A stretch of DNA of 64,000 nt, from the NCBI GenBank assembly GCA_019054805.1, contig JAHQIY010000001.1, positions 10,864,501-10,928,500 of the forward strand, written 5' to 3'. Source of the DNA: Brachionus manjavacas (lineage: Eukaryota; Rotifera; Eurotatoria; Ploima; Brachionidae). Positions 26,393 through 63,186 of this stretch are shown piece after piece (the first letter of the stretch is position 1; each line of letters starts with the position of its first letter). Under the pieces are notes generated by a model. The model had not been told where the DNA came from. It saw only the letters and a list, made by a program, of their open reading frames with translations, and did not search any database. The translations under genes and the position numbers were made by a program.

Positions 26393-29300
26393 TCTTTGTG
26401 GTGCGATAAACACAGGCCCAAAGAGCTCGGTCTACTTGACTATCATAAAGAACAAGCTGAACAGCTAAAAAAACTAGTAACCTATTTGAAACTAATTACA
26501 AAAAGAGTGTCGGAAATCGAATTCTAAAAATCGACTCAGCAATCGATTAGCTTGACTTTAAAAAAAAAAGATTAGGAATAGTTTTTAATCTAATGTATAA
26601 TTTATATATAATTTATTTTATGAGCAAATGTTTAATGTAGCATCATAATTTTTGATACCAGGTTAAAAAAAATTTCTCATAAATAGAAAAAAAAGTAATA
26701 AACTTTCATTAATAATATTAATATGATCCTATGCTCCAAAAAGAGTGAATAAGGAAAAATAATAAAAAAAATAATATTAATAACAAAAAAATTGAAATTA
26801 CTAAGTTGAATTAGTTAGTTTAATAATAAGAAAATTTTTTAAAAAATATACAATTTTATTTAAAAGTAACAATCATTCGGAAGAAAGATTTTCTGCTAAA
26901 TTATTATTTAAATATATGAGTTATTTAAAAAAAATATAAAATAATGATAAAAAATTTAACAATTTTCTTTGTTTATGACGGTATGAAGAGATAATTCATA
27001 AAGTATTGATTATATGATGGTCAACGGTAATTTTGCGTGAATTTTCGTAAATTTATAAAAGGTCCAAAAATTGTCTCTTCTTTGAATTAATCTTTGAAAA
27101 AATCTTTTTTTTTTGAATTTTGTAGATTTAATTATTTTTCTAACGATATTTTCTATAAATAATAAATAACGTAAATTCACAAGTTTTTATAGAAATAAAT
27201 GGTATAAATAAATAAAAAAAATGCAAAAATATATTAGTTATAAAATTGCCCAAGGCAATAGTAGCTGTCTGCGAAGAATCATTATCTGGGTGATTTTAAA
27301 CACTTTTTTTCTTACTTTTTTTATCTTTTATTCCATTTTTTACAGTATAAAAATGTCAACAGACCTAAATAAACGAAATTTTTTTACTAACTATCTGGCT
27401 CTGGACTTGAAATATTTAGAAAAAATTCTCACAACCAAAAATCCATTTTAAAAAATCAAAAAGGAATCGACAGAATTTTTTAGAAAACCCATTTTTAGCG
27501 AAAATATTTTTTATGAAAAATTATTAAAGTTTTCTTGAATTTTAAATTGAAAAAAAATTCACAATACCTCAACAACCCAAAATTCTTAATGAATCTTTGA
27601 TTAATAGATATAATCGATAATTCAATATGATTATTTTTATCATTAAAATATTTCAATAGATTAAGAAATATTTTTATCATATCATGAATTTTTTGCTAAA
27701 AATGGTTATTTTAATTAAATTTATCATAAAATTTAGTCATTCAATTCTTTATCTTTTCTTAATGTCTGGACGTTTTTTTAAGATTATATTGCGCTATTTA
27801 TTTTTGTTTAAAAAACTATTGTGTTTTTTTAAATCCAAAATCAATTTTTTTTAGAAATTATGCTTTTATAAACAAAAAAAATATAATTTCTTTAATCTAA
27901 CCTTTTAAAAGCCTAGTTTCAACCTTAATAGTGAGAGAAAAAGAAAAAAAATTATTTTAACCATTACTTAAGATTTTGAATCATTTGCGATTCATATATT
28001 AAATTTTTCGGTGTTTGTGAAATTCAATTCAACAGAATAGAAGTAAACTATAAAGTCTTTAATTTTTTTATAAAGCTCTGCGACTGCATCAAAGTATAAC
28101 AAACATAGTCACGTAAAAGATCTTTACAAAATTTACTTCAATCAAATCAATAGAAGTTAATTTCCTTTATGAATTGTAGAGTTTTTGCAGAATGTTAGAA
28201 TAATTTAATTTTTAACAAATTATTCTAATATAAGATTATCTTTATTTTTTGCTTTCAAAAACAACCTTCGTCAGAGTCTTTGGAATAAATTTTTCTGGCT
28301 AATAATTTTTATTTATTTTTTTATCTTCATGAAGCACTAACTTTTTCATGCTGAAAATAAAACTAAAATAAAAATAAAATCAAAATTCCAAACAAAATAA
28401 AATAGAAAAAAAAATTAAAAATGAATTCTAAAATTTTTAAATTAAATTCATTATGAAGATGATAAATTTTTGAAACTAAAAAATTTTCTATGAGACGATT
28501 TTCAGCACTTTAACCGACACACTTAATCAATTTTTGTTGAATAATGGTAATAATTGCTCATTTAAAGGTGCACTCTGAAGACTTTCCGCATCTTTTGGTC
28601 TATGGTCCGAATGGTGCTGGCAAAAAAACTCGAATTATGTGCGCTCTAAGAGAGCTGTATGGACCTGGTGTTGAAAAGTTACGCATAGAGCGACAGCAAT
28701 TTGAGACTCCATCGAAAAAAACCATCGAAATGACAACATTGGCGAGCAATTACCACATTGAAGTAAACGCCAGCGACGCTGGAATTTATGACCGAATCGT
28801 GATTCAGGAAATGATTAAAACGATTGCGCAAACAAATCAATTAGACGCTCAGACCCAAAAAAGCTTTAAAGTTGTGGTATTGACTGAAGTGGATAAGCTT
28901 ACCAAAGATGCTCAGCACGCCCTGCGTAGAACCATGGAAAAATATATGAATACTTGTCGGTTAATTTTGTGCTGTAATTCAACTACTAGAGTCATTCCGG
29001 CAGTTAGAAGTCGTTGTTTATCGCTAAGAGTACCAGCTCCGACAAACGACCAAATTGTTGCTATAATAAAACAAGTCTGTAAGTCTGAGAACATCTCTAT
29101 TTCTCAAGATTTGGCAAACAAAATAGCATCCAAATCGAATAGAAATTTAAGACGAGCCATGCTATTATGCGAAACAGCATACATTTCTCATTATCCATTT
29201 ACTAATGACCAGGAAATAAATGAGCCAGATTGGGAGCTTTTTCTGCGGGAGACCGCGCGCCAAATTGTGCAGCAACAATCAGTTGAAAGGATAATGCAAA

Positions 29301-29548
29301 CTAGAGACAGATTGTATGAGTTATTGTGTCACTGTATTCCTGCAGATCTGATTTTCAAAGGTCTGTTAAAAGAGCTGCTTTTGATATGTGATGGCCAATT
29401 GAAGCCACAGATTGTTGAAATCGCTGCTGACATGGAGCACAAAATGAATTTAGGTGACAAGCAAATATTTTATTTAGAGGCTTTTGTAGTCAAATTCATG
29501 TCTGTTTATAAAAAATACCTTGAGTCTAGTCTTGCTGGATGTATATAA
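26390..29548 (+). CDS. RFC3: replication factor C subunit 3 (clamp loader)
   Basis: Two exons (26390-26476, 28568-29548) join in phase 0 to 355 residues, against 356 in human. RFC3 is a small subunit of the pentameric ATPase that loads the PCNA clamp onto primed DNA in the nucleus. Seen: N-terminus MSLWCDKHRPKELGLLDYH, Walker A GPNGAGKK (residues 42-49), the LTEVDKLTKDAQHALRR Walker B region and the VRSRC arginine-finger motif, followed by the collar domain. The first exon is too short for a simple frame search but matches family N-termini closely. The 2.1-kb intron is unusually long for this window. The gene follows the zinc-finger gene after 110 bp. Confidence 0.96.
26477..28567 (+). other. 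long RFC3 intron
   Basis: This 2,091-bp intron starts GTAACC and ends TTTAAAG. A 76-residue frame inside (27,221-27,451) is hydrophobic, resembles no family, and is probably chance. A GTTTGTGAAATTCAATTCA piece near 28,015 resembles the end of the element in the potassium-channel intron. Confidence 0.5.
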
Positions 29549-31985: not shown

Positions 31986-34153
31986 AAACTTATCATTTAT
32001 TAATTTTAATAAAAATTTTTGAAAATAACTTTTTCTTATTTGCAAAGACAAGTTTATTTTCCGGCAAAAATTAACAATAAAAGTTAGAACGATAAAAATT
32101 AATAAAATTTAACACGTTATTTCATTTTAAAAATTATATGTAATGAAGCAAAAATATAATAATTTGAGTTAAAAAATGAGCCCACTCTATAGGCCGGTCA
32201 ATGTCTTTAAATTTTATAACTCCTGATATTCCTAGATAAATATAATATGTGTTCTCGGATGTATAAATGAGCATTTTATTTTAAAAATTTATTATTGATA
32301 TTTTAATTTTATTTTTAATTAGATAAGATAAATTTAAGGTAAAAAAAAATTAAATAAATTGTGCAAATTTTTCGTTGCTTTGAACAGCTCCTGTTTTTCC
32401 TCTTAAAAATTTTAAACTAAAAGGTCTAAATTTCGCTAATTTTTTTTTGGATCTAGTCCTACAGGAATTCTATCACTCTATTCTTTGAATTAAAATTCTG
32501 AAACTAAAGAAGATTTGGAACCATTGAAATGAGAAAATTATTATTTTTTTTAATTTTCGGATATACTTTTAATAGGACTGAAAATGTTTAATACTACTTA
32601 TTATCAAAAGGTATCTTGAAGTTTTCAGAGAGCTTACGAATTTAATGTGGAAATTTGTAGATAGTGTGGATGTTTTGCATTTCTCGGATTTTATACATTT
32701 AAAATAAATAAATTCTATTGAAAAAATGTTTTAGACTAAAAAAAAACCAAATTAATTTTTTTTTGAAATTTTAAGAAAGAATTTTTTTACATTAATTCAA
32801 TCGTCTAGATTTTTATATTAATCATTATATAAATATTTATTTTATCCTCCAATTTGAAGACAGATCATAAGATTTGTTCATCTTTAAACAATTTTTCACT
32901 CAATTTAGTTAGCTAACCATCTAAAATTTCTAATATTTATTGTGACCTTTTGCATCCTTAATTCATTACCAAATCTACCAATTTTTAATTCCATTTCACT
33001 TTAGGTACCAAAATGAGACTTGTTCATTAGTAGAATCAAGTTGATGACCTTATTCAATTGCATAACCTTCATTTATTGGTTTTGGAAATCTTGATACCAA
33101 ATTTTACTAGTAGAAGTATTTGTAACATGAATGTATTCTGTTTACCACCACTAGTTTGATGCTGATTAAGACAAATGTAAGAATAGATAATTCTAAATGG
33201 CTAGAAGTTGTTTATGTAACTAATATTACTTTTTTATCTTTAAAATTTATTAACTTTATGTGGATTATAATTTTTTATTTAAAAAAATTCTTTTATACAA
33301 AAATGATTTTTGACAAAAGAATTGTATCCAGATTAATAATTCAATTTTTTCACTAGATTCAAAAATGCTTGATTATGAAAATGAATCCGATAGTAGTTTT
33401 ATTGAAAGAATGAAAACTCACGACACTCAAGCAACTAATAGATATACAAACCAAGATAAAAAAAAATGTGCTAAATAGTTTGAATTTTATTAACCATTTT
33501 AAAATATTTGAATTTTTTTGGAAATAAAAAAAAACTTTTTTTTTCTCAATAAAATCGTTTTATGCATTAAAATTTAACTGATACGGATAGTAAATTAATG
33601 CAGGTGGAGTTAAATAAAAATTATAAAAAAAGTATAGGCCATTCTAAATATTTTATTAGTCTAAATCTCTCTTTAATTTAGGAATTTGATACCGCAGCAA
33701 TTAAGCTTAATTAATTTTTAATTTTTTGTAATATTTATCCTGAATAAGTTTTTTAAATGAATTTTATTAAAAATTTTCCGAAATGCATATATGTATTTTT
33801 TTAATTATCTTGTACTTGAATAATTTCGAAAAAAAATCAAGGGATATGTGTGTGTGATCAAATCCCAGTTTCTCATATATGGATTAGAATTATCCAAATT
33901 TTTTTGGTTTAAAGCCAATTCGGCAAGGTAATGTAATAAAAAATTAAAAAGAACAATATGGTCTTAAACTCAGCTCAAAACTCTAACAAAAATTCTAGAG
34001 TTTTTTTTATTTATAAGCCTTAAAAAAAATTAATTTAATTTTAATAGTTAAAAAAATTATTTTTTTGTATCTTTCCCATTTTATTTACATATCTCTTAAT
34101 TTTATAAATCTTTGTTTGAAAATTTTACATTGAGAGAAAAAAAGCATTGTTTT
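31986..34153. other. AT-rich intergenic sequence
   Basis: The only candidate is a 37-codon frame at 33,365-33,478 (starts MLDYENESDSSFIERMK). It follows a CACTAG acceptor-like site and the same ATTCAAA leader seen before TIM8. I cannot support it further. The rest shows no gene. Confidence 0.35.
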
Positions 34154-35453
34154 TTAATTCATCCAGCTTAGTTCAACAATATGACGAACTCTTTTCCTGT
34201 ACTCTTTTTTATTTGTTTGATAAATGTTAGCAGCTTCGTTATTCGCAGGTGAATTTGGATTCGGTTCGTCCAAAAGGGACTTAAATTAAAACATTGAAAA
34301 ATAAATCATTTTTGATTTGATTAAAGCTTAGTCTTGGCCAAAAAATTAACTTATTAATTGAGAGAGAAAAAATAATTTAAAGTCTTTATTTACACAATAG
34401 CCAAAATAAGAAAGCTTAAAACAGACGAACAACAGTAATAGACATTATTTTGTTTAAATTTTATTCATATTAAATTATTTAAAGCACAAAAATTTATAAA
34501 TTTTCTCTTAATTTAATTGTACAAATGAGAACTTAAGTTCGGTGTGAATTTAAATTGAAGTTGATGCGCTGGATTGTTTAGGCCGGACTGTGGGTCCAAT
34601 TTTGGCTAAATGTCGTTCGTCCTGATTTAAAAACTTTCTTTTCTCACTTGGCTATTTATTTTTCTTAATTACATTTTAAGATCGACAAAAATATAAATAA
34701 ATTTAAAAAAAAAAGTTTATTATTTTGTGCATTTATGCTTGCTATTCGATTTTTTATTTTGGCTCTTCGTTTTTATTCTGTTCGGACTCATCGTCTGAAT
34801 CATCCAGCCACGACTCTTGCACTATTTGCTGCACTCGTTTTTCATACTCGCGTTTGTTTTCACGGAACAACTGAGCTGCCTCATTGTTCGCAGGACTATT
34901 CGGATTCGGATCGTGTAATAGTGACTTAAAGTTAAATTTTTATACTCAAGTCAATGTGGAAATGGGGACTAAGCGTTTAATCAATGTCAAAGGGCAAAAA
35001 AAATTGTTCAATTACTTGTATTGATGTGAGAATGGCCGACACGTCATAAGTAGGACTCCAGCGATTTTGAAGTATATCTAAACAAATACCACCATCGGCA
35101 TAAACTTAAATTTTAATAATAAATAATTTGAATTTTTTTTTTTTTTTGGTGCCATTACCATTCGGATGGAACATTTTAGACACAAATCTAACTGTCGGTG
35201 GTTTATTCGGGTACTCTTCGGTAAAAACTAGAGTAAGTTTGAAAGTGCCATCTTCAAAAGGGGTGTCGTGGGGTCTTAAATGTTAGCTTAGAATTTTTTA
35301 CTTAAATGAAGCTGAGCCGAGTGTTTACCCGAAAATGACGGCGTTCCAAAGCATTATGTTGTTGTCTGTTGGCGCGCCACTCACACCAACCGGAGGGTCA
35401 TCTTGGAGTCTTTTGAAATCTCGCATCAGCCTTCGTCTAGCAGTGGTAGTCAT
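34154..35453 (-). CDS. UBE2A: RAD6-type E2 ubiquitin-conjugating enzyme, distal-exon isoform
   Basis: Exons 35329-35453, 35159-35274 and 35016-35104 plus the distal last exon 34154-34279 join in frame to 151 residues, the usual length of UBE2A (152). RAD6 takes ubiquitin from E1 on its active-site cysteine and, with RAD18 or RNF20/40-type E3s, modifies PCNA or histone H2B. Seen: [20 protein letters not shown] at the N-terminus, [31 protein letters not shown], and GGICLDIL with the active Cys88 (usual GSICLDIL, so Ser to Gly next to it). The distal exon starts [20 protein letters not shown] and ends IVELSWMN. Codons 1-110 are shared with the proximal-exon form, whose last exon is annotated separately. 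Confidence 0.9.
34550..34621 (-). other. coding-like block between the two RAD6 last exons
   Basis: After an AAATCAG acceptor-like site, a minus-strand frame of 23 codons ([18 protein letters not shown]... then TAA) is clearly richer in GC than its surroundings. If joined to exon 3 (phase 0) it would give a truncated E2, so I doubt that use. It could be a further tail exon, part of another transcript, or a relic. Confidence 0.25.
34754..34924 (-). CDS. UBE2A: alternative last exon of RAD6/UBE2A with acidic tail
   Basis: This proximal last exon begins after TTTAAG, in the same phase 0 as the distal one, and encodes [40 protein letters not shown] and an acidic tail [15 protein letters not shown] before TAA. 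Joined to codons 1-110 it gives a 166-residue enzyme, 15 longer than the distal form. Acidic tails are known in yeast Rad6 and some invertebrate homologues, where they aid histone contact. Both exons encode the same stretch of the UBC fold, so they must be used one at a time. Confidence 0.88.
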
Positions 35454-48530: not shown

Positions 48531-50177
48531 ATGACCTTTAGTTGTATTAAATTTAAAAAAAAGTTCAAAATGAAGTTTAACTTGACAAGTGGCTGCGCTA
48601 ACGCTTCGTCTACTTCGACCAACGACGGCGCCATCAAAGAGCCCAATCCGTCGAAAAGTTCCCGCTCTTCTTCCACTAGCTCTTCGTACAAATCCTATTC
48701 GAACCACTCCAACATCGAGCTAAACAGCTCAAAAACCGGTCTGTGCAAAAATGCCAAGGCTCAGACCGGGTCTAAAAGTGCCATTAAGAGCGACACCAGC
48801 AAAAAAGTCGACAAGCCAAAAGAAATAGCGCGGAAACATTTGTCCAAAAATAGTAGACGGTCCAAAAAAGATAAAAAGGAATCGAAAAAAAACAAATCTC
48901 ATTTTATTGCTCAATCCTTGCAGCCTGCGCCCAACCCGCCATCCATTGATTCCATACCGTCTTTGCCGAGCTCGTTTCTGGCGCCATCAGTCATTACCTC
49001 TAATTCGCTGCTAACCACTGGCACGTCTTCCTATTCGGCCAATTCTTCCGCTTTATTAATGAAACACAAGTCTTCCAGATCAACTAGCAGCGCAATTTCC
49101 GACCCTAGAACCAAAGTCGATTCCAAAATGGAAAGATTGGAAAAGTTAAAGGATGCAAAATACCAAAAAGAAAAGAGAAAAAAAGAAAAATTCACTAAAC
49201 AAGAGGTGTATGAGAAAATAAACCTGAATGGAAAGCTAAATGATCACTTGTATTGTCCTCTTGATTTCAGTAATAGTGGCAAAATAGACGAAAAAATAAT
49301 TCAGACGCCAAAATTTTCCAAATTAATAAAAAAAAAATGCGACGATTCAAACATTGTGTCTTTGATTGAATCGACCAGAGAGAATGCGGAGAAAAATGGG
49401 AAAATTCTGGAAATGAAGCAGGATGAATACAATTATGCAGTGAGTCAAAAAAGCACCTCAACTGAATCCAAATCAGACGAAAATCTAGTTTACGGAGATG
49501 ACCATATTGTGCCTGAGCACCAAGAGGTCTACGACGAGTACATAGACAACACCAGTCAGAACCACAGTGAGGAATACGACTATCAGGATGAAAATAACCA
49601 AAGTTGTCAAGATTGTCAAAAAGAATGCGACTATTCCAAAGACGATTACGAAAAAGAATATGTATATGAATATGAGTATGAAGAGCGAAATGAAACTAGC
49701 TGTGAAGTGGAAAACTATGAGCTGAAAAATGCCAATGAAAGGGAGCCTGCTGAAAATGAGTATGATGCTGTTGATTCGTGTGAGGATGATTTGGCAGCTG
49801 GGCGCAGGAATGATCAAGTTGACGTGGAGAAAAAAATCGGTATTAATTATTTCAAGCTGGTTGATGATGAAACTTATTTAGACTTGAACGAAATAACAAT
49901 TGGTGGTCATGAATTGGTGCAGGAAGTTGAGAATGGAATAAAAAAAGAGGAAAAAGCGCAAATTGAAGAGTTGAACGCACAGAACAATCTGGATAATATT
50001 GAGACTGAAGGAGAACAGGAGATTGAGTTCAATTCGGAGAACTCGGACAGTGAAGCTAATAGATCGTTAAATCAGAATTTAAATTGTCAGAATGAGTATG
50101 AGCTGAAGTTTGATAAATACCGTAGTTTGAATGATTTGACAGCGGCAGAAAATTCAGTCACTTGTACCTCGTTTTGA
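48531..50177 (+). CDS. unrecognised single-exon protein, basic N-half, acidic C-half
   Basis: An uninterrupted frame of 548 codons, by far the longest intron-free one apart from the RAD50 and chitinase exons. I recognise no domain. The first ~200 residues are Ser/Thr/Lys-rich and strongly basic (for example SKKDKKESKKNKSHF). A charged helical stretch follows (MERLEKLKDAKYQKEKRKKE), then an acidic, Tyr-rich region (EEYDYQDENN, KEYVYEYEYEERNE) with several cysteines. The C-terminus TCTSF fits a class I PDZ ligand (S/T-x-hydrophobic). The first ~500 bp are richer in GC than the surroundings, which supports real coding. The start could instead be the Met at 48,570. No signal peptide or membrane span is seen. 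The role is unknown; a scaffold or disordered regulator is only a guess. Confidence 0.75.
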   Translation: MTFSCIKFKKKFKMKFNLTSGCANASSTSTNDGAIKEPNPSKSSRSSSTSSSYKSYSNHSNIELNSSKTGLCKNAKAQTGSKSAIKSDTSKKVDKPKEIARKHLSKNSRRSKKDKKESKKNKSHFIAQSLQPAPNPPSIDSIPSLPSSFLAPSVITSNSLLTTGTSSYSANSSALLMKHKSSRSTSSAISDPRTKVDSKMERLEKLKDAKYQKEKRKKEKFTKQEVYEKINLNGKLNDHLYCPLDFSNSGKIDEKIIQTPKFSKLIKKKCDDSNIVSLIESTRENAEKNGKILEMKQDEYNYAVSQKSTSTESKSDENLVYGDDHIVPEHQEVYDEYIDNTSQNHSEEYDYQDENNQSCQDCQKECDYSKDDYEKEYVYEYEYEERNETSCEVENYELKNANEREPAENEYDAVDSCEDDLAAGRRNDQVDVEKKIGINYFKLVDDETYLDLNEITIGGHELVQEVENGIKKEEKAQIEELNAQNNLDNIETEGEQEIEFNSENSDSEANRSLNQNLNCQNEYELKFDKYRSLNDLTAAENSVTCTSF

Positions 50178-53062: not shown

Positions 53063-56000
53063 ATGTCTAGTATTGAAAAAATGACAATTCAGGGCATCCG
53101 AAGTTACGGTCCCAAGGAAAAGGATACTCAAATGATCGAATTTTTCACGCCAGTTACTTTAATTTGTGGTCAAAACGGCTGTGGTATGCTTTAATTTCTC
53201 AAAATTTGAGAAAAATATCTACCAAAAATGAATTAAGGTAAAACAACTGTTATCGAGTCTCTTAAATACGCTACAACAAGCGACATGCCTCCAAATACCA
53301 AAGGATCCTCGTTTTTGTTCGATCCAAAATTAATCGATGAAATCGAAACAAAAGGAAAAATCAAGCTTTTTTTTAAAGATACCAGTGGACTAACTGTCCA
53401 AGTCCAAAAAAATCTATGCTGTACGCAAAAGGCCAAAAAATTAGAGTTCAGAACTTTGGAGACTATAATTAGCAGATATGACAGTCAAGGAAAATTAGCG
53501 AGTACGATCACCAGTAAGTGCATCAATGCTGACGCAGAGGTTGTAAATGCTTTTGGAGTGTCCAAAGCAGTCATGGAACACGTCATCTTTTGTCATCAGG
53601 AAGACTCGAACTGGCCATTGAGTATTTTTTTTTCAAAACCTTTTCTTTCCTTGTTTGGACCATTTTTTAACAGGTGATGGAAAACTTTTGAAAACTCGCT
53701 TTGACGAAATTTTTGCTGCCACCAAGTACATCAAGGCTTTGGATGCTCTAAAAAAAGTTCGCTTGGAAAAAAATCAATTAATAAAACAGATGGGGATCGA
53801 GCGAAAACATTTGGAAGCCTACAAGAGTCGATCCGAGCAGCTTAAACGAGACTCAGAGGACAACACCAAAAAACTAGAGCTTTTAATAAACAAAAAAAAA
53901 GATCTGGGCGAAAAATTAAAGCCCATTAAAAAACAATTGGATTTCTATTTTCAGGAATCAGCGCGGATTTTTGAAATTAAAATCGAACTTGACAAAATTG
54001 AAAACGAAAAAGATCTCTTTGAAAGACAAATCAAAGAATATTTGGCCGCAACCAAAGACTGTCTGTTCACTGGAACCGATGCCGAATTGGAAGAGTATGT
54101 AGAGCATTTCAAGGCAACCACTGATAAAATGCGACGCGAAGAAGAAAGAGAAGTATATGAAAAAATTGAAAGTACCAAGCATCAAATAAAACAGATTAGT
54201 GGCTCTAAATCCAAAATCAGCTTGGAAATGGGAGCTTTGGAGAATAGATTTAAAGATTATGTCCAAAACAAAAAAAAGCTAGATGCTATTGCCACTAAAG
54301 CATGTGATTTAATCGGTATCGAATGCCCTAGTATTGAAGTGATCACTGCAAAGCTATCTGATTTTATCACTGACTACGAATATCAAATTGGTATAGATCA
54401 AGAAAATGCCAAAAAGCAGGACACTCGGCTTCAAAGTGAAATTGATGCTGAGCGAGACAAAAAGTCAAGAATTGAACAAAGTATTCAGAATAAAAAGGAA
54501 TCCATAGCAAAATATCAAAATCAGTACTGTCAGATAGAAGAAGAGCTGAATTTAATCGAGGATGACAAGGTGCAGGCCGAGCTTTGTGTCAAAATAAATC
54601 ACTGCGAGGCTGAAATAGAGAAACAAAGCTCTCAGTTGATCAATGTGGATGAGATAAAATCAAAAATAAAACAATTAGATAATTCCAAATTAAATTTAAA
54701 ACAAAGAGAACAGGACATTGATGCCAAAATTAATAAATGGCACCAGAATTCCAAGCTACAGACAGAATTAAGCATGCTAAGGAACGAAAAAAAAGCCAAA
54801 CAGGAACAAATTAGGAAAATTAAAATGCACATTGAGGAAGACATGGAGAACTTTTTTGACCAGAGCGAAAATTTGATGACTGCCAAGTCAGATGACTCGA
54901 TGCTCAAGGCAATATTTGATGTAGAATGCAAAGACTTGGACTCTCAGCTAGGCTCGCTGGAGTCAAGTCGAAAAGACTTGGACAAAAATTTAAGTTCCAA
55001 CGAATTCAAGCGAAAAATGTTCAATGACGACTTTCGCTCTAAGGAAAAACAGCTCAGAAATTACGAAGATATTCTTTTGAATTTAAATGATCTCATTACT
55101 AATGAATCGGACATTGACCGATTCGATTCCATTCTGGAAAAACTTCAGGACGAGCAAAAAAATTTACTAGATGAAAAGGGCTTTTTGAGCGGAGTAGACA
55201 AAACTTACAAAAGATTTGTCCAGCAGCTGCAGCTGAACTCGGACGACAAACACTCGTGTCCGGTTTGTATGCGAATGTTCAAGGACATCGATGAAGTGAA
55301 CGACACTGTCAATGAGCTAAACAAGTACACGCGCAAAATTCCGCAAAAAGTCCAAGATCTGGACCAAAAATTAAAGTCAAACGAGCAAAACTTGGAGAAA
55401 ATGTTCAATGCCAAATCTGTTAAGGAATCATATGACAAGATTAAAAACAACGAATTGACTCAGTTGAAACAGAAAATAGAAGAACATGACAAAAACATTC
55501 TGCCAAAATTGAGAAAAGAGCTGATCGAAACTGATGGTAAGATTAAAAATTTGACCAAGCGAAAATCTTACGCGATTTCGTTGCAAAGCGAGGTAATTAT
55601 GATAGATAAATGTACAAGTGAAGTCAGGGATGTTGAGAAGAAAATTGAGAGTTTGGCCAGAAATGGTAATTTGGAGGCGGCGGATGACACCGACTTGGAG
55701 ACTCTGTCCGAGCAGAAAATGGTTATTCAGGGTGAATTGGAGCAGATTAGCCGAAGCATTCAATCTGATCAGGAGGAAATTTCCTCTTACTATGCTCGTA
55801 GTGATCAAATTCACAAAATAAGAGAGAAATTAAATGATTACAAGACTAGACGGAACGAAATTGAGTCAAAAAACCAAAAGAAATCTCAGCTTGTTGACAA
55901 AAAAGAAGAACTTAGGACCGAAATAGTCAACTTGAAAAAAGAAATACTCGCTTTGGAAGCTAGCTTTAAGACTTGCAGCAAATTGGTTGAAAATTTAGTG

Positions 56001-58118
56001 AATGAAAAAGAGATTGTTTGTCAAAAAACGCACAAAGAATTGACGGATAAAAAAAAATTTTATCAAGAAATAAATGCCATGTTCAACCAGATAAATGATT
56101 TGGTCAAGCTTGTGAAAAATTTTGAACAAAATGACGAGTCAAAGATAGCTGAATACAAAAAAGAATTTAAATTATTAGATTCGACCGAAAAAGATTTGAA
56201 TGGTAGAGTGGATAAATTGTACCAGGACGCGGAGAATATAAAACTAGAAATAGCTAGACAAGAGATAAAGCAGAGAGAGTTGAACGACAATTTAATGTTG
56301 AGACAAAAGAGAAAGCTCTTTGACGCCAAAGAGAAACAGCATGCCAAAAAAAAAGAGGAACTTCAGCTAAACGATAACACTAATTTAAAAGACTTTAAAA
56401 TGGAGCAGGAAAAATTGGAAAAAAAGCGTGATGATTTGCACAAAGAGATAAACGAAGTAGCTTCGAACATCAACATTTTAGAAGGTAGACTACAGGCCAT
56501 TAACGAAGAGCTCAGTTTGGACACAATTAAGAACGCCGTAGAAAAGTACATGGTATGCACCAGTGACCTAAAAGTGCTGGAGTACAGTGTTATGGATATA
56601 GAAAAGTACTACAAGGCTTTGGATAGGGCAATAATGAATTATCATCAAATTAAAATGAATGAAATTAATAAGATTATCAAGCAATTGTGGAGACAAGTTT
56701 ACCGTGGGGTTGATATAGACTATATTGAAATTAGAAGCGAGGAAGAGAACGGTGCTGAAGAACAAATTAAATCCAAAAAAACTTATAACTATAGGGTTGT
56801 GCTCATTAAAGGTGACACTTGTTTGGACATGAGAGGTAGATGTAGTGCTGGTCAAAAAGTATTGGCTAGTATAATTATAAGATTGGCACTGGCCGAAACG
56901 TTTTGTCTTAATTCGGGAATTTTGGCGCTCGATGAACCTACTACAAATTTGGATAGAGATAATATTGAAAGCTTGGCTAGTGCTCTTGTTGAGTAAGTTT
57001 TTTTTTAAATTATAACTTTTGAGAATTTAAAAATTTTAAATATGGTTAGGATTTATTTTTTATTAGATAGAAACGATTATTTATTAAAACGATCATTTTT
57101 TGATTTTTAAATTTTTGCTAGACTTAAGTAAAATAATTTTCGAATGATTTTAAAATTAAAACTATTAATAATTAATAAACAAGCTACTGTTTTTAAAGAC
57201 AATAAATTTATAAATAAAAAAAAGTTTAGGTGGTTAACTTTCACCATCATTTAGGAAATAAACTTGCATAAATTGAAAAAAGTGATGTTTTTTTTCACTT
57301 AAGGTATTTTTTTAGACCTAGTGTTAAATGATAGCGATTTTTTTTTAATTTAATTAAATCAAAATCATAACTGTTTTGCTATTTCTTGAATCACTTCGGC
57401 TGATTTAAACTTTTAGAAAATAGATAGTTCTTAAAATATAGTTTTAATGAGAATTACATGACTTATCATTTAAATAGAATAAAAAAGTTATAAAAAATTT
57501 TTCTTGAAATTTTTTTCCTTTAGGTTTGATTAAAAATATTAAAAAAAAATCAAGTTCTTATATTGAGTGATCAGTATTTTTTACATATTCGTGTTACGAT
57601 TTAAAATAGTTAAAATTTAAATTAAATTTATTGAATCTAAAAAGGTTTTAATTTTAGCAAATTATGATTTAGTTAAGTTAAATTATTTAATCAAAAATTT
57701 CTTAAATAAATATAATTAATGATTAGAAAAAAAATTAGATAATTTGATTGATTTTAAACAGTCTTGTTATTTCTAAATTAAAGAAATTATTTTTTTGAAA
57801 AAAAAAATCTTTGATTCTAATTTCATTTCAGTTTTATTTAAAATGATGAAAAAAATAAAAATTTCATAAACATTTTTGCTTATCTTTAAGAATTATCAAA
57901 ACAAGATCTTTGCAAAAAAACTTCCAGCTGATAATTATTACACATGATGAAGATTTTCTAGATATGCTTGGTCGCTCCGAGTATATGGATCAATTTTACA
58001 GAGTTCATAAAGATGAAAAGTAATTTATTTGAATCTCAACTAAAATTATTGTTTAGAAATTTTTAAATTTTCTAGTGGTTTTTCAAGAATTTCCAAAAGA
58101 AATAAATCAAGTCTATAA
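53063..58118 (+). CDS. RAD50: DNA double-strand-break repair protein RAD50
   Basis: Five exons (53063-53183, 53238-53621, 53674-56992, 57891-58019, 58076-58118) join in frame to 1,331 residues (human 1,312). RAD50 is the SMC-like ATPase of the MRE11-RAD50-NBS1 complex, which senses and tethers broken DNA ends. Seen: N-terminus with Walker A GQNGCGKTT, Q-loop [12 protein letters not shown], two long coiled-coil arms, the zinc hook CPVC (Cys697 and Cys700) for dimerisation, the ABC signature [12 protein letters not shown], Walker [12 protein letters not shown], and the C-terminal [19 protein letters not shown]. The last 43-nt exon ([13 protein letters not shown]) is inferred: without that splice the frame would stop at TAA 58021-58023, nearly the same protein. 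Exon 3 is 3.3 kb, unusually long here. Confidence 0.96.
56993..57890 (+). other. long RAD50 intron
   Basis: An 898-bp intron (GTAAGT...TTTAAG) lies inside codon 2 of the EIIKTRS block, just before the last ATPase segment. No gene or repeat is recognised in it. Confidence 0.6.
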
Positions 58119-59147: not shown

Positions 59148-62100
59148 CTAATGTTCAAATCTATTATCATTACAATTCGAGTTGTAATCACAAACTCCAA
59201 ATTTCTTGTTGAATACTAAATCCCCAGCACATTTCTTGAGATATGGCACTCCTCTATAGCATTGCCAAAAACTTTTACAGTTTTTTCTATTTTCAAACAA
59301 ACCATTCGCTTCAGGACAAACAAAAACTAAAAGAAAAAAATTTATCATCAATAATTTTTTATAAATTTATTTTTAGTTTACCATCATTCGATTCATTGCT
59401 AACAGGAAGGGTTTGTTTAAAATATGATGAGTCTAATCTCATTAGATCATAAGTTAACAATTTTTTTAATGTTTGCTTGCATGAATCACTTGTCCATGCA
59501 CAAACTTTGAGTTTATTATCAAAAACTAGATTTCCGGGACATTTTTTATCAAACGGAATAAAGTTAGAGCAGTGCCAAAATCGGTCACAGCTTTCTTGGT
59601 TTGGGAACAGACCGGACGCATGAGGGCATTTAAATGTCGAGTCATCATTATCAATTATAGTTGTTTTTAAAGTGGATGATTGAGTCAAAGTAGAAAAAAA
59701 ATTACTCTCGGTAGTTTTAGATTCCTGAGTTTTCCCAGGGCTTGCATAAGCAAATATTGTAGTTTCAGAATAAATTGTTTCACCAGATTCTGAAGACTTA
59801 GTGATGTCAGGAGTCACGTAAACTATTACTGTAGTGTTTAATATGGCTTCAGTTGTAGATTTAGTACTTTGCGATGTTGCATAAGCTATTACTGTTGAAT
59901 TAAATAAATTATCATCTGACTGATTATTTACTGTCTTGATATCTGAAGTTACATAAGCCATAACAGTAGTATTTGCCACAAAAAAGTCCTCATTTTCTTG
60001 GTTAATGGAAGTAGATTTTTGGTCTGAAGTTACATAAGCCATAATAGTAGTATTTGCCACAGAAAAGTCCTCATTTTCTTGGTTAATGGAAGTAGATTTT
60101 TGGTCTGAAGTTATATAAGCCATAACAGTAGTATTTGCCACAGAAAAGTCCTCATTTTCTTGGTTAATGGAAGTAGATTTTTGGTCTGAAGTTACATAAG
60201 CCATAACAGTAGTATTTGCCACAGAAAAGTCCTCATTTTCTTGGTTAATGGAAGTAGATTTTTGGTCTGAAGTTATATAAGCCATAACAGTAGTATTTGC
60301 CACAGAAAAGTCCTCATTTTCTTGGTTAATGGAAGTAGATTTTTGGTCTGAAGTTACATAAGCCATAACAGTAGTATTTGCCACAGAAAAGTCCTCATTT
60401 TCTTGGTTAATGGAAGTAGATTTTTGGTCTGAAGTTATATAAGCCATAACAGTAGTATTTGCCACAGAAAAGTCCTCATTTTCTTGGTTAATGGAAGTAG
60501 ATTTTTGGTCTGAAGTTACATAAGCCATAACAGTAGTATTTGCCACAGAAAAGTCCTCATTTTCTTGGTTAATGGAAGTAGATTTTTGGTCTGAAGTTAC
60601 ATAAGCCATAACAGTAGTATTTGCCACAGAAAAGTCCTCATTTTCTTGGTTAATGGAAGTAGATTTTTGGTCTGAAGTTACATAAGCCATAACAGTAGTA
60701 TTTGTAGCCGTGTTGTTTATATTATTTTGTTGGTTTTCTGTTGTTAAAAAAGATCCAGGTGTGACAAAAGCAACTTGTGTGGTATCATCATTGTCTTGGG
60801 TTTTGGCATATTTTGTTGTATTTGATAGTTCAAGTATTGATTTAGTTGCATACGCAAAAACTGAAGTATCAGGTGAAATCATCGGAATCAAGGTAGTTGA
60901 TTCAATTTCCGTTTTACAGGTAACCTTTTACGAAAACTTAACAAATATTTTACTCTTAAATCAGTTAATTTTTACTGGTTTATTTTTTGAACAAGTTTGT
61001 TGGCTTGGATCAAACCATAAGTTTACGGGACACTTTAAAATCGCAGCTGGATTTTCAAAGCCTTTCAAACAAACTTGATAAAATTCGCATCCAATAAAGC
61101 TTGGTATCAAAATAGTTCCATTGCATTTGTCTAAGATAATCTGTTTAAATTTTTAGTTTTAATAAAAAAATGCATACATGATGACATTAATTCAAAATCC
61201 ACTGAATTATCATAAGAATCTTTTGTCACTAAAAATATTTAATTGATAAAAAAAAATTTGATGCTTTATTTTAATTACCTGATTTTTTTGTTGAAGATTC
61301 CGTTTCAACAAATTGCGTAGCTTAGATAAAATATTTACTAATTTTTTAATTTAAAAGACAAAAAATTATACTTTTCTCGAAATGAATTGTTTCCGAAGTC
61401 AAAGTCTCTTCTTTCACTTTTTTTTTAAATTTAGCAATTATTTTAACACAAGTTTAGATAAAATTTACCAGGCATTCTAACTGGAGCCACTGTGGTAACT
61501 GGTTCTGCTAAAATTAAATTTAAAAAAGTAAATTTAAAAAATAATTTTAATACCTGATGAAGCGATTTCCTGTTTAATGATTGATTCATAGCATTCTGAG
61601 TCTTTTAGAACTTCATTTAGAATTGTCATTAGTGGATAAGTTCCTTCATCACAAAATGTTCCTTTGAAATCATCAAAATCAATCTTAAAAATATATCCCG
61701 AATAAAATTTTATTTTATTTTCTAGTTTAGTTATTTCTTCTTACAGTCCAAATCATAGCTCCTCCAAGACACATATCTTTGATGTAACTTGCTTTTAAAA
61801 TTACTGATTCTTGATTTTCATATCCGATCCATTGATTATCAAAAGTGAGACCAGGCACTCCAAGTTCATTATCGAATTCTTCAGCTAAATTTTTCTCTTT
61901 TTTTATTTGACATATCTTAATGATAAATTTAAACCGAAATATTTTATACCTAATTTAAAAAATATACTTCATAAAAAGACAAAAAACCGGCTTCTTTAGT
62001 AAATTTTCCAGCTCTGGATGATCCTCTAGAAAGTGAACCAACTTTATTTGAGTGGGAATTAGCCAGTTTGAAACCTCTTCCATAAAAAGCTATGCCCAAT

Positions 62101-63186
62101 ATTAGCTTCTCTTTTGGACAACCTTTTTTAAGCCAGTAATTTACTGACCAATCCTTACAAAAAAATTTTAAACACAAAATAACCAAATTGAAAAATCTTA
62201 CCACATTTAAAGTATTTTCCCATGATAAATCGCCTGTTTTAGAATACAAAGCTGAATGAAAGCCTGTCTTAATACTCCAAGAACCGTGAAACTAAATTCA
62301 AATTGAATTTCTTAATTTATTTTTTTTATTTTTTTTACGTCATAGGCCATCAAATTCACAAAATCAACATATTGACTAATTTTATCTACTTCATAGGAAG
62401 TGTCAATGGTTGCTTGGCCACCAGATACTGCAATTGATAGCTCAAGAGATTTATTCTTTGGAGTTTCATTATCAAATTCAAGTCTCAATATCTAATTAAT
62501 AATATATAGCTAAATTTAAAATTTAATTGAAAAACTTTACTTCTAAAAGTCTTGTAAATTGCTTTTTTTTAACAACAGGAAACTCCCAATCGACATCTTA
62601 ATTTTTTTTAAAATAAAAAATTTTAGATTCAAATTTTTAAGTATACCGAGTCCGTCGAATTCCCATTTTCTTAAAAAATTAATTGAATTTTTGGCAAATG
62701 TTTTCATTGTTTCATCATTTTCAACAACTTTCAGATACATTAATTTTTTTAAATACCACTCTTATAATATTAATTAAATTTTTACCAGTATCAAAACCGG
62801 CTGATCCCTGAGCCCATCCGCCTACCGCAAGTAAAATGTTTAATGCAGGATTTATTATTTTTAGAACCATTATTCGCTCATATAAGCCAAAGCCATCATC
62901 GATTTCTATATCAATTGCTTCAGTTGGCGCAAGAGTATAATTTTCGATTTTGGCAAAAGCATATATAACATGTGTACACAATTCAGGGTTGATGTCTTCA
63001 GGATAAAATTCGGCACCACTTGGTCTTGAGTGGGCCCAATTTGTGAAATAGCTAAAATTCTAACATTAATTATTTTTTTAATTAAAAATTTACAATTTTT
63101 TACCAAACTTTTTTAAAGGTTGCCAAACAGCAGCTTAGATTTGCTAACAAAAAAAATAGAACAAAAACTTTTTTTTTAATTTTCAT
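59148..63186 (-). CDS. secreted modular chitinase (GH18 with CBM14 modules)
   Basis: Sixteen exons (63104-63186, 62786-63051, 62647-62727, 62541-62596, 62339-62491, 62202-62291, 61968-62153, 61745-61915, 61554-61683, 61469-61507, 61372-61416, 61279-61320, 61178-61228, 60976-61130, 59382-60924, 59148-59326) join in frame to 1,089 residues. GH18 chitinases cut beta-1,4-GlcNAc chains. Seen: signal peptide MKIKKKVFVLFFLLANLSCC; barrel start CYFTNWAHSRPSG; catalytic motif FDGLDVDWEFP with the acid Glu148; MAYDFHGSW; FYGRGF; GGAMIW. Four small phase-1 linker exons follow, then a divergent CBM14, a Ser/Thr-rich region of 81-bp repeats, and two CBM14 modules (CPHASGLFPNQESC...; CPEANGLFENRKNC...). 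It probably acts outside the cell on cuticle, lorica, eggshell or food chitin. Some linker-exon boundaries rest on phase alone. Confidence 0.9.
59977..60705 (-). repeat. nine 81-bp in-frame tandem repeats in the chitinase
   Basis: Nine complete units of 81 bp, each encoding 27 residues (ANTTVMAYVTSDQKSTSI plus NQENEDFSV), followed by a decayed tenth (TSDIKTVNNQ). The units are nearly identical. One position, Val or Ile in AY(V/I)TSD, reads V V V I V I V I V along the protein, so a two-unit 162-bp block has itself been copied. The Ser/Thr and NTT content suits a glycosylated spacer between the catalytic and chitin-binding modules. Confidence 0.95.

Follow-up and report, generated by a model that had tools for sequence, protein, structure and literature searches.

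The window, a 64,000-nt stretch of the Brachionus manjavacas genome with a G+C content of 26%, carries on its minus strand one RAD6/UBE2A gene in which three shared exons are followed by two homologous last exons, here called 4a and 4b. RAD6 is a ubiquitin-conjugating enzyme (E2) that acts in DNA repair and in the tagging of histones. Exons 1-3 encode residues 1-110 and include the catalytic cysteine. Both 4a and 4b begin in phase 0 after codon 110, and each has its own acceptor and its own TAA stop and is thus a last coding exon, although a non-coding last exon common to both kinds of transcript may follow. The features are, in the direction of transcription:

35329 to 35453, minus strand: RAD6 exon 1, start codon at 35453; its opening residues align with human UBE2A and C. 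elegans E2-21.5 kDa
35275 to 35328, minus strand: intron 1, GT..TTTAAG, 54 nt
35159 to 35274, minus strand: RAD6 exon 2, from the genome protein search and translation
35105 to 35158, minus strand: intron 2, GT..TTTAAG, 54 nt
35016 to 35104, minus strand: RAD6 exon 3, carrying the active-site Cys (ICLDIL) and ending after codon 110 in phase 0
34925 to 35015, minus strand: intron 3 leading to exon 4a, 91 nt, terminating in CTTTAAG
34754 to 34924, minus strand: last exon 4a, residues 111-151 followed by a 15-residue acidic tail and a TAA stop
34655 to 34721, minus strand: two AATAAA motifs after 4a, beginning at 34721 and 34660, a possible end of the 4a mRNA (pattern only)
34280 to 34753, minus strand: stretch from the 4a stop to 4b, comprising the 4a 3'UTR and the end of the 4b intron, 24% G+C, ending in AATTTAAG
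34154 to 34279, minus strand: last exon 4b, residues 111-151, tailless, with a TAA stop
34080 to 34085, minus strand: AATAAA motif 69 nt beyond the 4b stop (pattern only)

This anatomy is certain. The end of exon 3 at 35016 and the exon starts at 34924 and 34279, together with the phase 0 junctions, the TTTAAG acceptors and the stops, agreed exactly with the initial annotation, and translation confirmed its two predicted products, a tailed form of 166 residues ending in 4a and a tailless form of 151 residues ending in 4b. That both exons encode the same C-terminal part of the UBC fold was likewise borne out, since a search of the window with the 4a peptide matched 4b at E = 3.8e-16, with 63% identity over 41 residues; the likeness of the two exons is far beyond chance. 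For both forms the best PDB match was human UBE2A (E = 5.3e-88 for the 4a form and 5.6e-87 for the 4b form). Among the best 60 of 157 PDB matches of the 4a form, the top 16 (5.3e-88 to 6.2e-69) were RAD6/UBE2A/UBE2B chains, counting those with generic depositor names, which we take to be of these types (1q34, 1z3d, 2aak and the chains named E2 2 are among them); an unassigned chain, 5v0r, followed at 5.3e-53, and UBE2D types from 9.3e-39. With the 4b form, 16 PDB sequences of the same kinds fell below 1e-60. The E2 core of both forms thus matches RAD6-type chains ahead of other E2s, and the Pfam UQ_con scores were 178.3 bits for the 4a form and 178.8 bits for the 4b form. Both translations contain the HPN motif, the active-site Cys in ICLDIL, the gateway S120 and the helix-3 A126, residues whose meaning in RAD6 enzymes is described in PMC9630792.

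Other genes were noted in the same window. Positions 28541-29545 hold a gene for an RFC-type clamp loader, and a RAD50-like gene, assigned by eye with a Walker B match just below the cut-off, occupies 53237-56996 of the plus strand, about 18 kb from RAD6; that three DNA-repair/replication genes stand within 30 kb is probably due to chance. A long open frame on the minus strand (59359-60927) encodes nine tandem 27-residue units NTTVMAYVTSDQKSTSINQENEDFSVA, five of them exact and the core occurring nine times, followed by an end that by eye is Cys-rich and chitin-binding-like, and near it there is a chitinase-like exon (Glyco_hydro_18) at 62721-63059. No Rfam family was detected in the window at gathering scores.

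Copy number was assessed in the 114-Mb assembly (61 contigs) by a six-frame search that scored the best candidates. A whole-RAD6 search detected no second RAD6 locus in this assembly: exons 1-3 turned up a single time, and 4b matched the RAD6 protein at E = 2.6e-11. A single match was likewise obtained for the 4b DNA. Since exons 1-3 were detected once in the genome, exon 3 is the only upstream partner detected for 4b. Other E2 matches in the genome were at most 44% identical over 100 or more residues, and no shorter one exceeded 50%. Among the non-RAD6 E2 genes, two of very similar sequence (L018, C3:4248790-4249142; L016, C3:4254262-4254639) lie some 5.4 kb from each other on one strand, apparently the result of a tandem gene duplication. 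We found no convincing third copy of the last exon in the window or the genome; the next-best window match for either peptide, obtained with composition correction and masking off (E = 0.003, 27 residues, 49283-49360), is Lys/Asn-rich and was taken as compositional. Relatives of the 4b form were also sought in viral_contigs (16 pattern stretches) and genome_contigs (36 stretches), and none was found in either set. The published B. manjavacas guide targets for vasa and mlh3 (PMC10395877) each had one match in the assembly, an exact one, when up to 2 mismatches were allowed, which fits this rotifer or a very near relative as the source; the nematode telomere repeat was absent.

A comparison of the two exons revealed old divergence at the DNA level together with conservation of the encoded protein. 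They agree at 26 of 41 residues and, in the DNA, at 76 of 123 bases, and each remains about as close to distant RAD6 proteins (human UBE2A 111-151: 30/41 for 4a, 29/41 for 4b; C. elegans: 31/41 and 29/41). At the 26 shared residues the same codon is used 10 times, where 10.3 would be expected from independent draws according to the codon usage of the RAD50, RFC and RAD6 coding stretches of this window; synonymous codon choice is therefore indistinguishable from random. Third codon positions agree at 16 of 41 sites as against 10.5 expected by composition alone, an excess of the sort that shared residues would cause. Ser120 is encoded by AGT in 4a and TCA in 4b, and Ser148 by TCG in 4a and AGC in 4b, so that both positions use codons from the two unlinked serine families, which we take as a sign of great age and of a strong need for serine. 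The last 12 and 11 intron bases on the acceptor side align along with the exon starts (63 nt, 78%, E = 8.7e-5), so the acceptor was probably copied together with the exon. Further out the likeness fades: over 91 nt of upstream intron, 4a and 4b show hardly any similarity (its score was reached by 49 of 500 shuffles), and the downstream sequences show no likeness (187 of 300 shuffles).

In a pairwise codon model, which averages omega over both branches and here draws on one short pair of 41 codons from one genome, omega 0.5, the expectation for a constrained 4a and a 4b dead since the duplication, was rejected (2dlnL 16.6), as were omega 1 (27.5) and omega 0.2 (7.4), and omega 0.1 was not (3.5). 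The dS is saturated, with the fit going to its bound and even a dS of 2.1 disfavoured (2dlnL 6.6); the NG86 method returned a dN of 0.35 and no usable dS. When neutral evolution was simulated from 4a, 176 of 20,000 runs still had an open frame and 26/41 identity or more at 0.3 substitutions per site, and none of 20,000 did at each of 0.5, 0.75, 1, 1.5 and 2 substitutions per site. The pairwise test thus points, within this single genome, to selection on the protein for both exons. Residues shared by human and worm have moreover been lost on either side, D114, E115, Y130, Q131 and E146 being retained by 4b and lost in 4a, and Q128, L129, E132, R135 and E138 being retained by 4a and lost in 4b, and neither exon looks like a worn copy. 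As codon choice is random and yet 26/41 residues are kept and omega 0.5 is rejected, there is strong evidence from sequence that 4b would be an old coding exon maintained by protein-level selection.

A first rival to this interpretation is that 4b is an unused, dead or dying relic of an old duplication, as the initial annotation had allowed. The base composition of 4b, with 36% G+C and a GC3 of 0.31, does fall below that of 4a (44% and 0.44), although its own flanks are lower still, at 24% and 20%, and 4b could have fallen out of use very recently. With codon choice randomised, however, an unused exon should have lost both its frame and its protein, whereas 4b retains the open frame, the acceptor, the stop and 29/41 human residues, among them the five human/worm residues that 4a has lost. 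On this sequence evidence a dead duplicate is very unlikely.

A second rival, to which we also assign a small probability, holds that 4b ends a separate transcript unit, either a tandem copy of RAD6 with its first exons missing from or collapsed in the assembly, or one with exons supplied by trans-splicing. Tandem E2 copies do appear to occur in this genome (C3, 4.248 and 4.254 Mb). The six-frame whole-RAD6 search of best candidates, however, detected exons 1-3 only once, and a collapse would need near-identical exons 1-3 next to last exons whose divergence is saturated. No Met precedes the homologous part in the open frame of 4b (34285-34154), the best E2-like match between 4a and 4b (E = 6.1) does not rise above chance, and the bdelloid spliced leader was absent at up to three mismatches, though Brachionus may use another.

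The differences between the two protein ends are unevenly distributed, with 2 of 17 residues differing in 111-127, where the gateway loop and the beginning of helix 3 are found, 7 of 13 in 128-140 and 6 of 11 in 141-151. Exon 4a has a net charge of -7, of which -5 resides in the 15-residue tail, and exon 4b of +1, and the computed pI of the whole proteins is 4.87 for the 4a form and 6.83 for the 4b form. In yeast Rad6, according to PMC9630792, residues 141-149 are required for Rad18 binding and 150-153 for Ubr1 binding, and activity requires the acidic tail. Because these regions map to the divergent part, the exon swap would alter the partner-choosing parts and mostly spare the catalytic side, which suggests, by analogy with yeast, that exon choice may act as a partner or substrate switch. 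Candidate E3s in the genome comprise eight matches to the UBR box and a borderline one of BRE1-like type.

All four RAD6 acceptors are TTTAAG. For comparison, a homology-based scan of other E2 genes, limited to introns of 36-139 nt so that longer ones would be missed, yielded 19 junctions, 6 of which were dropped by eye as spurious (L002, two in L004, L012, L013 and the second in L007); the acceptors of the 13 accepted introns were 9 TAG, 3 AAG (one of them TTTAAG) and 1 CAG, those of L016 and L018 being near-copies and not independent. TTTAAG is hence a permitted acceptor, though not the commonest among these 13 E2 junctions. This set disagrees with a composition-based screen of the window, which gave 16 candidate introns, 13 with AAG (2 TTTAAG) and 3 with TAG, against a background of 46% AAG; we place more trust in the homology-based set, and nothing in the argument rests on either. 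The 13 accepted introns measure 47-119 nt, whereas the intron from exon 3 to 4b would span 736 nt, and if the former lengths are typical we would guess that joining to 4a may be the default, with 4b as the regulated choice. AATAAA follows both stops, at 34721 and 34660 after 4a and at 34085 after 4b, and occurs again at 34465 and 34390, but this is a pattern only, and the motif is expected by chance in DNA so rich in A+T. Which of two homologous last exons is used commonly depends on poly(A) sites and not on splicing by itself (PMC3228551), and last exons are known to be selected through splicing that competes with an upstream poly(A) site (PMC5928244). We infer such a poly(A)-coupled choice of the last exon here. 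The 4a 3'UTR also contains a donor-like CAA/GTGAGA (GT at 34647, minus strand, about 106 nt beyond the stop), and its joining to 4b could yield a decay-prone mRNA.

That donor would speak for a third rival, in which both exons are used mainly for dosage, one junction or poly(A) choice giving a stable mRNA and the other a poorly made or decayed one, for enzymes that behave the same, but we hold this to be improbable, since regulation alone explains neither the protein-level selection on 4b nor the concentration of differences after residue 127.

We therefore favour, as the probable explanation of the sequence, that this Brachionus RAD6 gene underwent an old tandem duplication of its last exon and yields two enzymes by means of alternative last exons. 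On this explanation, the last exon of a single RAD6 (UBE2A/B-type) gene would have been duplicated in tandem long ago. The exon 3 donor would be joined to 4a, with cleavage and polyadenylation occurring before 4b or without its use, or alternatively 4a would be skipped and the same donor joined to 4b; use of both junctions is likely, judging from the signs of selection on both exons. With 4a the enzyme would have 166 residues and an acidic tail (exon net charge -7), and with 4b it would have 151 residues, no tail and a C-terminal part that is more basic (+1). As S120 and A126 are identical in the two forms, both are predicted to be active E2s. They should differ in their best E3 (Rad18-, Ubr1- or Bre1-like) or in their handling of a basic substrate such as histones, a functional difference that is plausible and is drawn from yeast rather than from a rotifer result. 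The more specific proposal, that the tailed and tailless forms constitute a regulated switch of E3 partner from one gene, is tentative, and we regard it as possible rather than probable.

How does this gene compare with known systems? The E2 core of both rotifer products matches that of the RAD6/UBE2A/UBE2B family (yeast Rad6, human UBE2A/UBE2B, C. elegans UBC-1). To our knowledge, known members have one ending per gene, the human one being tailless, whereas the rotifer gene has both kinds, each encoded by one of its two homologous last exons. Vertebrate UBE2A and UBE2B are separate genes; vertebrates thus also have two RAD6 proteins per organism, but in the rotifer one gene provides alternative ends. 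The C. elegans RAD6 enzyme has a full acidic tail, and its chain 1q34, with 163 residues, extends past 151, so the earlier statement that RAD6 is invariant in invertebrates was too strong: what stands of its claim of rarity is that tailed and tailless forms from one gene are unusual, and not that an invertebrate RAD6 has a tail as such. The acidic tail of yeast Rad6 comprises 23 residues (PMC9630792).

With the same phase, their own acceptors, their own stops and shared upstream exons, 4a and 4b have the anatomy of homologous alternative 3'-terminal exons. Mutually exclusive internal exons in the strict sense sit between further exons and are chosen by splicing alone; 4a and 4b carry stops and are last coding exons, but a shared non-coding exon may follow them. 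A similar arrangement is found in human CAPZB, in which two similar last exons, with their own stops and separate poly(A) sites, follow a shared body (PMC3228551). Like CAPZB, the rotifer gene has homologous last exons with their own stops after a shared body; unlike in CAPZB, the duplicated exon supplies roughly one quarter of a catalytic domain, and an acidic tail is added by just one of the copies. The two differ also in gene and function, and exon choice in the rotifer is predicted from DNA. KRAS4A/4B and CDC42 are further examples of homologous last exons. In a search of the open-licence literature we found no report of a RAD6/UBE2A gene with two last exons, the splicing events described for human UBE2A there being a 5' exclusive first exon, an apparent alternative promoter and one event of unstated type, and nothing relevant on mutually exclusive exons in rotifers. 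Within that literature, homologous alternative last exons and the acidic RAD6 tail are already known, and the presence of both endings in one RAD6 gene is apparently new.

RAD6 works for several E3s as one protein, and two selected versions of the E3-binding end and tail would amount to a natural experiment on which residues are assigned to which partner. Brachionus manjavacas is editable with CRISPR (PMC10395877), and therefore each last exon could be removed alone. If the two forms do constitute a switch, it would assign RAD6 either to tasks such as the marking of histone H2B or protein turnover, or to DNA repair of the Rad18 type, perhaps in step with the life cycle of the rotifer, with its asexual females, sexual phase and resting eggs.
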